64,000 nt of DNA from an uncultured Verrucomicrobiota bacterium. GTDB taxonomy: Bacteria > Verrucomicrobiota > Verrucomicrobiia > Opitutales > Opitutaceae. The stretch is from the NCBI GenBank assembly GCA_903898675.1, contig CAIUGM010000014.1, positions 1 to 64,000 on the forward strand. The letters are read 5' to 3'. Both the position numbers and the translations under genes were made by a program. A model generated the notes under the pieces. The model made no database searches, was not told where the DNA came from, and saw only the letters and a program-made list of their open reading frames with translations. Positions 33,014 to 37,434 of this stretch are shown here, piece by piece (the first letter of the stretch is position 1; the number at the start of each line of letters is the position of its first letter).

Positions 33014-35371
33014 GTGAAAAGACTGCCCTTTCGCTGGAAGCTAATCCTTTTTATAGTCCTGATCTGCGGTGTGAGTCTCTCACTCGCATTTGCGGGGCTG
33101 TATTTCTACGAGGACCGGGAGTTCAACACGGAAGTGCAGCGGCGCGTGGAAAATTCCCGCCGCGTGATGGTCGAAAGCCTGGTGAACCGGCTCGAGCAGG
33201 ACCCGAATTCCACCGACCTGCCGCTCAAGGTACTCGGGACTGACTCGCAGATTGTCGCGCTCGCGGTCTTCGCTCCCGACAACCGGCTTCTGGCCAAGTA
33301 CGTCCGGCCCGGATCGTCTGAAACCATTCCCCCGCCCCAGCGGATCTCCGGCTTGTTCTCCGATGAGCGGGCGGTCGTCTGGACTCCCATCCGCAGCGGC
33401 CAGCGCAACCTGGGCACGCTTTATATCAAGGCCGAGCTCACGCCGGAGGACCTCGACCGCTTCAACAACCTGCTGCGGGGCTCGGGCATCATCTTTTTCT
33501 TCTCCGTCCTGCTGGCCCTCGTGGTCGCCTACCGCCTGCAGGGACTCATCACCCGGCCCATCACCGAGCTGGCCCGCGTCTCGGCCGACATCCAGCGCAA
33601 CCGGGATTACAGCCAGCGCGTGGAGGTCAATGCGTCCGGGGAAATCGGCGAACTGCTCGAATCCTTCAATGCGATGCTGGACACCATCCAGTCCAACACC
33701 GCGGACCTCGAGCTCGCCCGCGTCGTGGCCGAGGAGGCCCGGGAAAAGATCCGCCAGAGCAACGAACAGCTGGAGGAGGCCAACCGCACCCTCGAGGGGC
33801 GCGTGCAGGACCGCACCAAGCTGCTCGCCAAGGCCGTCCAGGACGCCGAGGAAGCGAGCAAGGCCAAGAGCACCTTCCTGGCGAAGATGAGCCATGAGCT
33901 GCGCACGCCGTTGAACGCCATCATCGGCTACAGCGAAATCCTCCAGGAGGACGCCCAGGACGAGGGTGACACCCGCACGGCCGACGACCTCGACAAGGTC
34001 CTCAGCGCCGCGCGCCACCTGCTCGGTCTCATCAACGACGTGCTCGACATCTCGAAGATCGAGGCGGGCAAGATGGAGCTCTTCCTCGAAAGCTTCGAGC
34101 TGACCAAGCTGATCCGCGAGGTCGCCTCCACCGTTTCCCCGCTGATCGGCAAGAAGGGCAACCGGCTCGCCATCGAATGTCCGCCGGACATCGGCTCGAT
34201 TCACGCCGACGCCACCAAGCTGCGGCAGATCCTCCTCAACCTCCTCAGTAACGCCAGCAAGTTCACCGAGCACGGCACCGTCACCCTGCGGGTCGCGCGG
34301 ATCCCGGGCGTGGTCACCGACATCATCGAGCTGGCCATCATCGACACCGGCATCGGCATGACGCCCGAGCAGCTCACCCGTCTTTTCCAAGCCTTCAGCC
34401 AGGCGGATGCATCGACCACCAGCAAGTACGGCGGCACCGGACTCGGCCTCGCGATCTCCAAGCAATTTGCGCAGATGATGAAGGGCGACATCACGGTCAG
34501 CAGCGTGGCGGGCACGGGCTCGACCTTCCTCGTGCGGATGCCGGCCGACGTGGAGACCGGCTCGCCCAAGGTCGTGCACACCACGGACAACAAGCTGACC
34601 AAGTCGCCGTTCCCCTCCACCACCAAGCCGCGGATCCTCATCGTCGACGACGACAAGGAAATCCGGAACGTCGTGGCGGAACTGCTCGAGTTCAGCGGCT
34701 ACGAAACCTACCAGGCCGCCTCCGGCAAACAGGGGCTGGAAATGGCCGAGGATAAACTGCCCGACATGATCCTGCTGGATGTCATGATGCCCGGCATGGA
34801 CGGCTGGACGGTGCTGACCAAGCTGCAGGCCAATCCCCGGCTGGCCGATATCCCGGTCATCGTGCTCAGCGCGGTCGGGGACACGGACATGGCCCTTTCC
34901 CTCGGTGGCGCCACGGTCCTGCTCAAGCCGGTCGACGCCGGCCGTCTCACCGCCGAGATCGCCGCCCAGCTCAGTCCGCTCGCCCGCTGCTATGTCCTGC
35001 TCGTGGAGGATGACCCCGATTCCCGGACCATTATCACCCGCATGCTGGAGAAGGAAGGCTGGCAATTCCGCTCCGCCGCAAACGGCAATGCCGCCCTGCG
35101 CGTCCTCAAGAAAGGCCGGCCCGTCGCCATCGTCCTCGACTTGAAGATGGCCGGTATGAACGGATTTGAATTGCTGGAAATCCTGCAAAAGACCCCCGAC
35201 TGGGCCGGCATCCCGGTCATCGTCGTGAGCTCGATCGACATGACCCAGGACATGAAGGACTACCTCGCCTCCCGGGTCGTCGCCATTCTCCGCAAGGGCC
35301 AGTTCAACCGCGAGGAACTCACGGAACTTATCCGCCCCGCCGTGCAGTCGTGCGCCCTTGCCGAAAGCTGA
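33014..35371 (+). CDS. Membrane hybrid histidine kinase with two C-terminal receivers
   Basis: A 785-residue protein, GTG start. Membrane helices at about 8-31 and 155-175 enclose a periplasmic sensor of about 120 residues, followed by a HAMP domain (RPITELARVSADI) and a coiled coil. HisKA has KMSHELRTPLN with phospho-His294; the HATPase domain shows DTGIGM and GTGLGLAI. Two receivers follow: residues about 543-655 (LLDVMMPGMDG) and about 662-780 (VLDLKMAGMNG). The second has EDDPDSR and an atypical ending LRKGQFN where the conserved Lys is shifted. It starts a coupled three-gene signalling operon with a receiver protein and a cyclase. Confidence 0.92.
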   Translation: MKRLPFRWKLILFIVLICGVSLSLAFAGLYFYEDREFNTEVQRRVENSRRVMVESLVNRLEQDPNSTDLPLKVLGTDSQIVALAVFAPDNRLLAKYVRPGSSETIPPPQRISGLFSDERAVVWTPIRSGQRNLGTLYIKAELTPEDLDRFNNLLRGSGIIFFFSVLLALVVAYRLQGLITRPITELARVSADIQRNRDYSQRVEVNASGEIGELLESFNAMLDTIQSNTADLELARVVAEEAREKIRQSNEQLEEANRTLEGRVQDRTKLLAKAVQDAEEASKAKSTFLAKMSHELRTPLNAIIGYSEILQEDAQDEGDTRTADDLDKVLSAARHLLGLINDVLDISKIEAGKMELFLESFELTKLIREVASTVSPLIGKKGNRLAIECPPDIGSIHADATKLRQILLNLLSNASKFTEHGTVTLRVARIPGVVTDIIELAIIDTGIGMTPEQLTRLFQAFSQADASTTSKYGGTGLGLAISKQFAQMMKGDITVSSVAGTGSTFLVRMPADVETGSPKVVHTTDNKLTKSPFPSTTKPRILIVDDDKEIRNVVAELLEFSGYETYQAASGKQGLEMAEDKLPDMILLDVMMPGMDGWTVLTKLQANPRLADIPVIVLSAVGDTDMALSLGGATVLLKPVDAGRLTAEIAAQLSPLARCYVLLVEDDPDSRTIITRMLEKEGWQFRSAANGNAALRVLKKGRPVAIVLDLKMAGMNGFELLEILQKTPDWAGIPVIVVSSIDMTQDMKDYLASRVVAILRKGQFNREELTELIRPAVQSCALAES

Positions 35372-35398: not shown

Positions 35399-35779
35399 AT
35401 GCCCAAGATCCTTTTAGTCGAAGACAACGAAATGAATCGCGACATGCTGACGCGCCGCCTCGAAAAGCGCGGCTACACGCTCCTCATCGCCGCTGACGGC
35501 GGGGTCGGGGTCGCCCTCGCCAAGAGCGCCCTGCCCGACCTCATTCTCATGGATATGAGCCTCCCGGTCATCGACGGTTGGGAGGCCACCAAACTGGTCA
35601 AGGCCGACCCGACGACCAAGGCCATCCCCATCATCGCCCTCACCGCCCACGCCATGGACAGCGATCGCGTCCAGGCCCTGGCGGCCGGCTGTGACGATTT
35701 CGACACCAAGCCGGTCGAGCTCGCCCGCCTGCTGGGCAAGATCGAGGAACTGCTGAAGAAATTCCCGCCCAAGGCATGA
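35399..35779 (+). CDS. Single-domain response regulator (DivK-like)
   Basis: A 126-residue receiver domain with LLVEDNEMNRD, phospho-acceptor Asp in LILMDMSLPVIDG, ALTAHAM with the switch Thr, and DTKPVEL with the conserved Lys; the sequence style (EDNEMNRDML, ALTAHAMDSD) matches DivK-type shuttle regulators. It lies 27 bases after the hybrid kinase and overlaps the cyclase gene by four bases (ATGA), so it is well placed to carry phosphate from the kinase to the next protein. Confidence 0.92.
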   Translation: MPKILLVEDNEMNRDMLTRRLEKRGYTLLIAADGGVGVALAKSALPDLILMDMSLPVIDGWEATKLVKADPTTKAIPIIALTAHAMDSDRVQALAAGCDDFDTKPVELARLLGKIEELLKKFPPKA

Positions 35780-37434
35780 GTGGTACGAGTTCCACGCCCT
35801 TCTCCCGGGACACCACCCCGCCGACCTCGCTGACGCCCTTCATCAAGGCGTTGAAGTCGCGCGACCTCGAGGCGCTTTCCAAGCTCCGCCACGCGCTGCG
35901 GACCCCGCTCAACCAGATCATCGGCTACAGCGAGCTGCTGATGGAGTCGGCGGAGGAAAACAACGTCACGGCCATCATGGTCGACCTGAAGCGCATCCAT
36001 ACCGCCGGCGGCCAGCTGCTCGCCCTGATCAACGACGCCCTGGCGCCCTGGAAGATCGAGACCGGCAAGATTGATTTCCCGGCGATGCGCCACGACATGC
36101 GCACCCCGATCAACGCGGTGATCGGCTACGCCGAGCTCTGCGTGGACGAGGCCCGCGCGAGCAAACACGAGGAACTGGTCAAGGACCTCGAGAAGATCCA
36201 GCGCGCGGCGCAAAACCTTTACGCGCTTTTTGAGAGCGACTCCTACCCGGACTCGATGGAGATCGGCGGCGGCTCCGGCGACATCGGCATCGCGGGCGAC
36301 GTCACGCTGGGCGCAATCACTCCCCCGGTGATTCCCGTCACCACGCCGCAGGATTTCGGCGTCTCGACTCCCCCGCTGCCCACGGCCCGGCTGCTGGCCG
36401 TCGATGACGACGACATGAACCGCGAGATGCTGGTCCGGCGCCTGCAAAAGCTCGGCTACGATGTCGGCGAGGCCGCCACCGGCCGCGAGGCACTGACCAA
36501 GCTCAAGGACGGCAACTTCGACCTGGTCCTGCTCGACATCCTCATGCCCGACCTCGACGGCTTCCAGACGCTCGAGTTCATGAAGGCCGACCCCCGGCTC
36601 CGCCACATCCCGGCGATCATGCTGACCGCGCTCGACGACGTGGAGAGCACCGTGCGCTGCATCGAGGCCGGCGCCGAGGACTACGTCCCCAAGCCCTTCA
36701 ATCCCGTCATCCTGCGCGCCAGGATCACCGCCTCGCTCGAAAAGAAAAGGCTCCGCGACCAGGAGCAGGACTACCTGGACCAGTTGCAGCTCGAGCGCGC
36801 CAAGTCCGAGCGCCTCCTCCTCAATGTGCTACCCAAGGCGATCGCCGAGCGGCTCAAGGCCGGCCAGCGCACCATTGTCGACAGTTTCATCGACTCGACC
36901 GTGCTCTTTGCCGACATCGTCGGCTTCACCCGGATCGCCGCCAAGCAGTCGCCGCACCGCACGGTCCAGCTGCTGAACGAGATTTTTTCCGGCTTCGACC
37001 GCATTGCCGAGCAGCTGGAACTCGAGAAAATCAAGACGATCGGCGATGCCTACATGATGGTCAGCGGCGTGCCCTCCATGCGCCCCGACCACGCCGAGGC
37101 GTGCGCCAACGCCGCGTTCGAGATGCTCGAGGCGGTGCGGGTCTTCAACCGCCGCCACCAGCTGGAGTGGACCATCCGCATCGGCATGAACAGCGGGCCC
37201 GTCGTCGCCGGCATCATCGGCACGCGGAAATTCTCCTACGACCTGTGGGGCGACACGGTGAACATCGCCAGCCGCATGGAATCGCACGGCCAGCCGGGCA
37301 AGATCCAGATTTCCGAGGTGACCATGAAACTGCTGGGCACCAAGTTTGACTACGAGCCGCTCGGGGTGATCGACATCAAGAACTCCGCCGCGATGCCCGC
37401 CTACCTGCTACACCGCAAGGCGCCGCGTAAGTAA
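35776..37434 (+). CDS. Tandem HisKA-like/receiver/class III adenylate cyclase protein
   Basis: A 552-residue soluble protein. Two segments resemble HisKA dimerisation/phosphoacceptor helices: RHALRTPLNQIIGY (His39) and RHDMRTPINAVIGY (His106), but no HATPase domain follows either. A receiver spans about 205-325 (LDILMPDLDG, Asp254). A coiled linker leads to a class III nucleotide cyclase at about 350-548 with metal-binding Asp in LFADIVGFT and GDAYM, the Lys in EKIKTIGDAYM and Asp in YDLWGDTVN that specify adenine, and NIASRM with the transition-state Asn and Arg. cAMP is thus the expected product. It is coupled by ATGA to the receiver gene upstream, suggesting phosphorelay control. Confidence 0.9.
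   Translation: MSGTSSTPFSRDTTPPTSLTPFIKALKSRDLEALSKLRHALRTPLNQIIGYSELLMESAEENNVTAIMVDLKRIHTAGGQLLALINDALAPWKIETGKIDFPAMRHDMRTPINAVIGYAELCVDEARASKHEELVKDLEKIQRAAQNLYALFESDSYPDSMEIGGGSGDIGIAGDVTLGAITPPVIPVTTPQDFGVSTPPLPTARLLAVDDDDMNREMLVRRLQKLGYDVGEAATGREALTKLKDGNFDLVLLDILMPDLDGFQTLEFMKADPRLRHIPAIMLTALDDVESTVRCIEAGAEDYVPKPFNPVILRARITASLEKKRLRDQEQDYLDQLQLERAKSERLLLNVLPKAIAERLKAGQRTIVDSFIDSTVLFADIVGFTRIAAKQSPHRTVQLLNEIFSGFDRIAEQLELEKIKTIGDAYMMVSGVPSMRPDHAEACANAAFEMLEAVRVFNRRHQLEWTIRIGMNSGPVVAGIIGTRKFSYDLWGDTVNIASRMESHGQPGKIQISEVTMKLLGTKFDYEPLGVIDIKNSAAMPAYLLHRKAPRK

Follow-up and report, generated by a model that had tools for sequence, protein, structure and literature searches.

What do two histidine-kinase phosphoacceptor segments do in a cyclase protein that has no kinase domain? 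This question is raised by a gene in a 64,000-nucleotide stretch of DNA (hereafter the window; contig CAIUGM010000014.1, positions 1 to 64,000, assembly GCA_903898675.1) from an uncultured Verrucomicrobiota bacterium. A first-pass annotation of the window had proposed that the two segments could act either as a dimerisation module or as a His-phosphotransfer element connecting two receivers.

A tandem DHp-REC-cyclase gene and its apparent operon

The open reading frame at 35776-37434 (+ strand) encodes a protein of 552 aa with the order DHp1-DHp2-REC-class III adenylyl cyclase, where DHp is a HisKA-type phosphoacceptor helix pair. A Pfam search of the protein matched HisKA in two stretches with 70.2 bits (cut-off 26.9), and HATPase was found neither in the protein (E up to 1) nor at the locus in the genome search. 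The two HisKA-like segments without a kinase domain, as first annotated, are thus borne out. Each stretch alone passes the Pfam cut-off in the genome-wide search (41.5 and 38.5 bits), so the tandem is far from a chance similarity. HisKA membership was judged by a match over the curated cut-off together with an H-x-[LM]-R-T-P box, and the tandem has both. DHp1 (35863..36075, +; about aa 30-100) comprises the Pfam HisKA match at aa 32-96 and model helices at 31-61 and 68-88. DHp2 (36076..36243, +; about aa 101-156) is the second HisKA stretch and a degenerate partner copy in most orthologues. Both histidines do occur in RHxxRTPxNxxIGY sequences, as had been stated: His39 (codon 35890..35892, +) in LRHALRTPLNQIIGYSE and His106 (codon 36091..36093, +) in MRHDMRTPINAVIGYAE. 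They are followed by a cis REC (36388..36735, +; about aa 205-320; Response_reg at aa 207-317, E 1.6e-27) with the phosphoacceptor Asp254, and by the class III adenylyl/guanylyl cyclase domain (36892..37416, +; about aa 373-547; Guanylate_cyc at aa 374-546, E 4.7e-58). Among the 45 HisKA domains of this 3.52-Mb genome, 42 are directly followed by HATPase_c (lists matched by eye); two of the remaining three are the window tandem and one lies 369 bases from a contig end.

The protein is not a histidine kinase, as it lacks both HATPase_c and an acid at H+1 (A40). Membership in the Spo0B, ChpT or HPt families was also rejected. Neither Hpt (PF01627) nor Spo0B- or ChpT-type Pfam models matched the protein (E up to 1), and DHp2 is followed by a linker (low confidence in the model) and the REC, with no CA-like domain.

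This gene is the third of an apparent operon. It is headed by a hybrid histidine kinase (33014..35371, +) with HAMP, HisKA (aa 284-352), HATPase_c (aa 399-511) and two C-terminal RECs in Pfam, followed by a stand-alone receiver of 126 aa (35399..35779, +; Response_reg E 3.4e-24), whose stop codon overlaps the start codon of the DHp-REC-cyclase gene (ATGA). The kinase has no Hpt (Pfam, E up to 1) and only 22 aa after its last REC; two HPt domains over the cut-off are encoded elsewhere in the genome, one of them in a 124-aa frame. The operon offers three possible intermediate receivers and one invariant histidine ahead of the last receiver. The kinase-REC-cyclase order is kept in 17 of 18 orthologue stretches (L031-L048), the exception being L045, which ends at a contig edge.

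Conservation of the two histidines

We collected 20 orthologue rows from 57 genomes (the window's own included), one being the window protein and one (L018) partial. R38, H39, L41, R42, T43, P44, L45, N46, Q47, I49, G50 and Y51 are invariant in all 19 full-length orthologues, including the window protein. Position 106, in contrast, is H in just 3 of the 20 rows covering it (R 7, Q 4, D 3, E 2, L 1), and equal roles for His39 and His106 were therefore rejected. This restriction of conservation to His39 escaped the first-pass annotation. It had named two grounds for abandoning its idea. One, loss of conservation at both histidines, applies to His106 and fails at His39. The other, a known family covering the region, holds to the letter for Pfam HisKA, but that family is the phosphoacceptor domain of kinases and is silent on kinase-less copies.

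Where kinases carry an acid directly after the phosphoacceptor, 18 of the 19 orthologues have A or S following His39 and L048 has D. In the cis REC, D210, D211, D254, T284 and K306 are invariant in the 19 full-length orthologues. The cyclase residues D380, K418, D424, D489, N496 and R500 are likewise invariant (19/19); we take D380/D424 to be the metal-binding aspartates, N496/R500 the transition-state residues and K418/D489 the adenine-selecting pair. By these residues the C-terminal domain is a class III adenylyl cyclase with predicted activity. The window's genus also contains DHp-less REC-cyclase paralogues (L051, L052, L053 and L054), which are 44-52% identical to the REC-cyclase part of the window protein.

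Predicted structure

The full-length model (pTM 0.51) shows four long helices, a REC and a cyclase. Modelled by itself from 37 sequences (residues 28-158 of the window protein), the tandem forms four long helices with a pLDDT of 91.5 and a pTM of 0.85, and is probably a single-chain pseudo-dimer with a predicted intramolecular four-helix bundle. The top VIA row for the tandem is a ROP dimer re-engineered to a single-chain four-helix bundle (Z 14.9, 2.1 A over 115 residues); a Z near 14 is weak, supporting evidence only, because four-helix bundles match many unrelated chains. A Foldseek search with the tandem returned nothing at E 0.001 or below. The 50 VIA entries listed include none named as a DHp or HPt domain (those of TorS are its sensor domain), which excludes nothing. 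Fold matches of the cyclase domain include class III cyclases of bacteria and animals, 5o5k being the best (Z 27.7, rmsd 3.7 over 215 residues).

CA-less DHp-REC proteins in seven phyla

A search for the same architecture had been suggested by the first-pass annotation, and it was productive. We scanned genomes with DHp1 as the query, took the best 80 loci of at least 586 matched stretches and assigned architectures with purpose-built profiles. CA-less DHp(-DHp)-REC arrangements, with one or two DHp copies, are joined to class III cyclase, SpoIIE phosphatase, sigma-54 activator, HD_5, HisKA_3-HATPase and DUF1003 outputs. The set of 60 distinct proteins spans Verrucomicrobiota, Myxococcota, Pseudomonadota, Armatimonadota, Thermodesulfobacteriota, Acidobacteriota and Cyanobacteriota. 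Twelve of the 60 entered the set through the neighbouring kinase and not through their own DHp (L105, L108, L109, L113, L121, L125, L132, L135, L138, L140 with two proteins, and L141); no other protein of this set comes from Armatimonadota, Thermodesulfobacteriota, Acidobacteriota or Cyanobacteriota.

In a separate search, 398 Pseudomonadota and 244 Cyanobacteriota genomes were screened with a profile covering one DHp and a REC, with 7 or 12 candidates scored per genome. Matches spanning DHp and REC were found in at least 12 Pseudomonadota and at least 9 Cyanobacteriota genomes (rows read by eye; each count includes the centre genome, known beforehand). Judged from these matches, the DHp-REC module looks broad but uncommon.

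Several unusual frames were seen. A tandem DHp-REC stands ahead of a PAS-HisKA-HATPase-REC kinase part in L186:5089-7851, adjoining another hybrid kinase, and before a HisKA-HATPase-REC part in L189:3590-6292 and L190:48-1895 (L190 shows HisKA only), also beside another hybrid kinase. In these three, the tandem may pass phosphate on to a second kinase. Pfam recognised no output domain in the covered frame parts of L183, L191 and L195; in L183:5054-10999 the tandem DHp-REC opens a frame of 2816 aa, and the rest of the 1982 aa covered has no Pfam match (E up to 0.01). Directly after the DHp-DHp-REC-cyclase gene of L121, a further open stretch of 112 aa, matched twice by HisKA, runs to the contig end (L121:9399-9734), possibly a further tandem DHp protein.

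A recurrent kinase and receiver neighbourhood

We investigated the genetic loci of the 60 proteins. A kinase lies within 2.5 kb of 54 of them, and 48 of these kinases have at least two RECs. A stand-alone REC is found just upstream in 48 of the 60, and all five active-site residues are kept in 48/48 of these receivers. The two proteins with neither a kinase nor a stand-alone REC (L045 and L055) sit at contig ends. In the cassette kinases of this set, 15-47 aa follow the last REC, too few to leave room for an HPt.

The stretches from the separate search (19, of 7 to 11.5 kb; L199, a partial match to an ordinary hybrid kinase, was left out) were compared with 20 control stretches around REC-only matches. 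A kinase is present in 16/19 cases and 7/20 controls, one with two or more RECs in 13/19 and 3/20, and a stand-alone REC in 19/19 and 15/20. Both a REC-REC kinase and a stand-alone REC occur in 13/19 cases versus 1/20 controls (Fisher p 3.9e-5), a rough comparison, the controls being hand-picked and all from Pseudomonadota and 8 of the 19 cases being cyanobacterial. Many controls resemble PleD/DivK pairs by architecture, and the lone positive control, L201, looks like a DHp-less cassette (reading by eye).

In L116, L200 and L201, a kinase and a stand-alone REC accompany a REC-cyclase or REC-SpoIIE protein without any DHp. The existence of such cassettes and of the DHp-less paralogues L051-L054 indicates that the DHp is not always needed and is an optional addition. 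L116, L200 and L201 provide natural comparisons with and without the putative relay unit.

The aromatic switch residue was considered as a marker of receiver roles, an idea taken from passages of PMC9981736. It is present in 58/58 cis RECs with letters there and in 0/47 REC2 domains of the kinases, a pattern consistent with terminal and intermediate receivers, respectively. REC1 (32/47) and the stand-alone REC (48/48) keep the residue, so the evidence on receiver roles is mixed. The FATGUY motif was tried as a sign of intermediate RECs and is absent from all four REC groups; the same passages report it for some intermediate RECs and call its significance unresolved (PMC9981736). REC2 of the cassette kinases, including that at 33014-35371, appears to be an unusual receiver subtype: the aromatic switch is absent in 47/47, and the proline after the active-site lysine is outside the five commonest letters.

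Histidine retention and a distinct signature

Retention was counted over 79 CA-less DHp-REC proteins, leaving out L055 (incomplete at a contig edge) and L154 (a duplicate). In all 79, one DHp copy or more has a histidine at the corresponding alignment position, although His-less members may be missed because the search queries carried the histidine. Twelve of the 79 are single-copy. The 67 two-segment proteins have it in the first segment only (40), the second only (7) or both (10), while in the other 10 one histidine is kept and the other (weak) segment is unalignable there. A second match in L091 (11 bits) was set aside, and the other weak second segments (13-27 bits) were kept. Two-segment proteins lacking both histidines number 0, versus 7.0 expected under independence (hypergeometric 7.4e-7, a value that ignores relatedness and is not taken as proof). 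On the tree, 4 changes are needed for the first histidine and 12 for the second; a phylogenetic paired test of whether the two losses exclude each other had no power, with 1 independent pair on supported branches and 4 on all. The histidine-bearing copy varies by lineage. It is the first in Opitutae and in 8 of the 9 cyanobacterial two-segment proteins found, and the second copy alone keeps the histidine in 8 of the 12 found from Pseudomonadota. Ten REC-output frames without a DHp (3 cassette-like ones, 4 paralogues and 3 controls) showed no His-less DHp remnant, suggesting that the whole unit is lost, not the histidine alone.

The CA-less copies also differ from kinase DHps around the histidine. 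At H-1, R is found in 56/59 CA-less first or only copies versus S in 98/101 kinase DHps; at H+1, E in 3/59 versus 96/101; at H+8, Q or H in 54/59 versus A in 94/101. The histidine itself is kept in 57/59 and the Thr at H+4 in 58/59. The two misses of the histidine are L105, which has it in the second copy, and L055, whose incomplete contig shows the second copy only. Over the 46 tandem first copies, H+1 is A 19, S 11, D 11, E 3 and K 2. A tree of 203 DHps, built on 69 columns only, does not reject a single clade of first copies (p-AU 0.83) or a single clade of second copies (p-AU 0.91).

A proposed relay and its alternatives

A relay is favoured by the make-up of the operon: its kinase has no HPt, three receivers could act as intermediates, and an invariant histidine precedes the last receiver. 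We are inclined to think, with some reserve, that DHp1-DHp2 is a DHp-type histidine phosphotransferase without the kinase half, fused to its own terminal response regulator and relaying through His39. The neighbouring hybrid kinase would autophosphorylate and pass the phosphate to its own REC(s) and/or to the stand-alone REC. The phosphorylated REC would donate to His39, and His39 to Asp254 of the cis REC, where phosphorylation may alter adenylyl cyclase activity; we infer this order and this effect. DHp2 would complete the four-helix bundle within one chain, so that the pair would be a single-chain pseudo-dimer with one working face. By sequence, H39 qualifies as the conserved, putative relay histidine on a DHp hairpin without autokinase that defines such phosphotransferases. 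The idea of a phosphotransfer element therefore stands for His39, which is invariant, has lost the H+1 acid in the window's genus and lies in an operon with a REC-REC kinase and a stand-alone REC; it gains no such support for His106, where R, Q, L, E, D or H occurs. Distant relatives keep at least one histidine and are joined to many output enzymes, suggesting a built-in phosphate relay. The chances seem to us evenly balanced that these genes form an undescribed, phylum-spanning cassette: an HPt-less hybrid kinase, a stand-alone REC and an output protein with an asymmetric single-chain tandem DHp, either half of which may be catalytic, before its REC. The tandem would serve as a plug-in relay for cyclase, PP2C, HD, sigma-54 and kinase outputs.

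The main rival casts the DHp unit as a phosphatase acting in cis or a sink for phosphate, which would bind the phosphorylated REC (cis or stand-alone), remove or draw back its phosphate and limit the cyclase signal. We regard this as possible but rather doubtful. According to passages of PMC3510030, HisKA proteins need the H+1 acid for kinase and not for phosphatase activity, so that its loss would spare the latter, and they need Thr or Asn at H+4 for phosphatase activity; T43 at H+4 is invariant here, which would suit such a role. The same passages describe the DHp alone as sufficient for phosphatase activity in EnvZ and NtrB, with a great boost from the CA domain. However, they give a variable histidine requirement for phosphatases (PMC3510030), whereas the histidine is never missing from both copies in our 79 proteins. 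A plain phosphatase would not call for an adjacent REC-REC kinase and stand-alone REC, and PhyT, first read as a phosphatase, was later shown to relay, as passages of PMC5898713 recount.

The two segments might, in an explanation that we find unlikely, be a mere dimerisation or spacing module for a cyclase that works as a dimer. The known dimerisation of DHp domains and the requirement of class III cyclases for a pair of catalytic domains fit this, as does the retention of the DHp2 helices while the histidine of DHp2 decays. Yet dimerisation as the sole role, one of the two originally annotated options, leaves His39 and its invariant box unexplained, together with the histidine kept by some copy in every protein examined. 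SpoIIE, HD, sigma-54 and kinase outputs are served by the same DHp module too, and in the prediction the two halves of the tandem pair with each other inside one chain. We consider it very improbable that the protein is a decaying relic of a CyaC-like hybrid kinase-cyclase that lost its ATPase domain, even though CyaC has kinase, REC and cyclase in a single chain. DHp1 is invariant across genera, the CA-less copies have a signature of their own (R at H-1, and Q or H at H+8, in most), one clade each for the first and second copies is unrejected (on those 69 columns), and the arrangement occurs in seven phyla.

If the relay through His39 is correct, the missing HPt step of REC-REC hybrid kinases lies inside the response regulator itself, and a homodimeric kinase domain can turn into a single-chain relay, one half of which is free to decay. 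Bacterial cAMP and PP2C signalling would also gain a route through a phosphorelay. The paired live and dead DHp halves form a natural alignment of what the phosphoacceptor box needs for transfer versus autophosphorylation.

Comparison with known systems

The first-pass annotation did not know this arrangement from described cyclases, and we agree: descriptions of tandem, double or duplicated HisKA, of this cassette or of this cyclase were not found in the open-licence literature searched, which leaves their absence from print unproven. The passages of PMC11210211 and PMC12189002 that we consulted do not describe the cassette.

The resemblance to HPt (PF01627), a different family, is a four-helix bundle presenting one relay histidine, both predicted here. 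Spo0B of Bacillus and ChpT of Caulobacter are DHp-type phosphotransferases, and ChpT cannot autophosphorylate (passages of PMC3433190 and PMC5231405). Like these, the window protein has helical hairpins with a putative relay histidine in a predicted four-helix bundle. Their bundle is built from two subunits, whereas the window protein has both hairpins in one chain; ChpT has an ATPase-like C-terminal domain, whereas none follows the window hairpins and the unit is fused to a terminal response regulator. PhyT and PhyP of Sphingomonas melonis are also kinase-like DHp proteins relaying from a single-domain receiver to a response regulator, as we infer for the window protein; PhyT, initially taken for a phosphatase, passes phosphate from the single-domain SdrG to PhyR by way of a conserved histidine (PMC5898713). 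They differ in being membrane-anchored, in having an HRxxN motif in the DHp and a degenerate ATPase domain, and in being separate from the regulator.

One further system likewise combines a DHp, a REC and a class III cyclase in a single polypeptide. CyaC-type cyanobacterial adenylyl cyclases have the architecture REC-kinase-REC-cyclase and keep the ATPase domain. The window protein, in contrast, lacks this domain and its kinase is a separate gene. Its cyclase domain matches that of CyaC (1wc1; Z 25.3, 23% identity) more distantly than 5o5k (Z 27.7, 43%). AphC purportedly phosphorylates and activates CyaC, according to literature passages. In archaea, proteins with HisKA and no HATPase, some with REC, are already in print, and a phosphoacceptor or phosphotransfer role was suggested for them; the relevant passages describe no tandem copies, cyclase output or kinase/REC cassette (PMC5847659). 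What the window locus adds to these CA-less HisKA proteins is the tandem single-chain form, the cassette and the cyclase.
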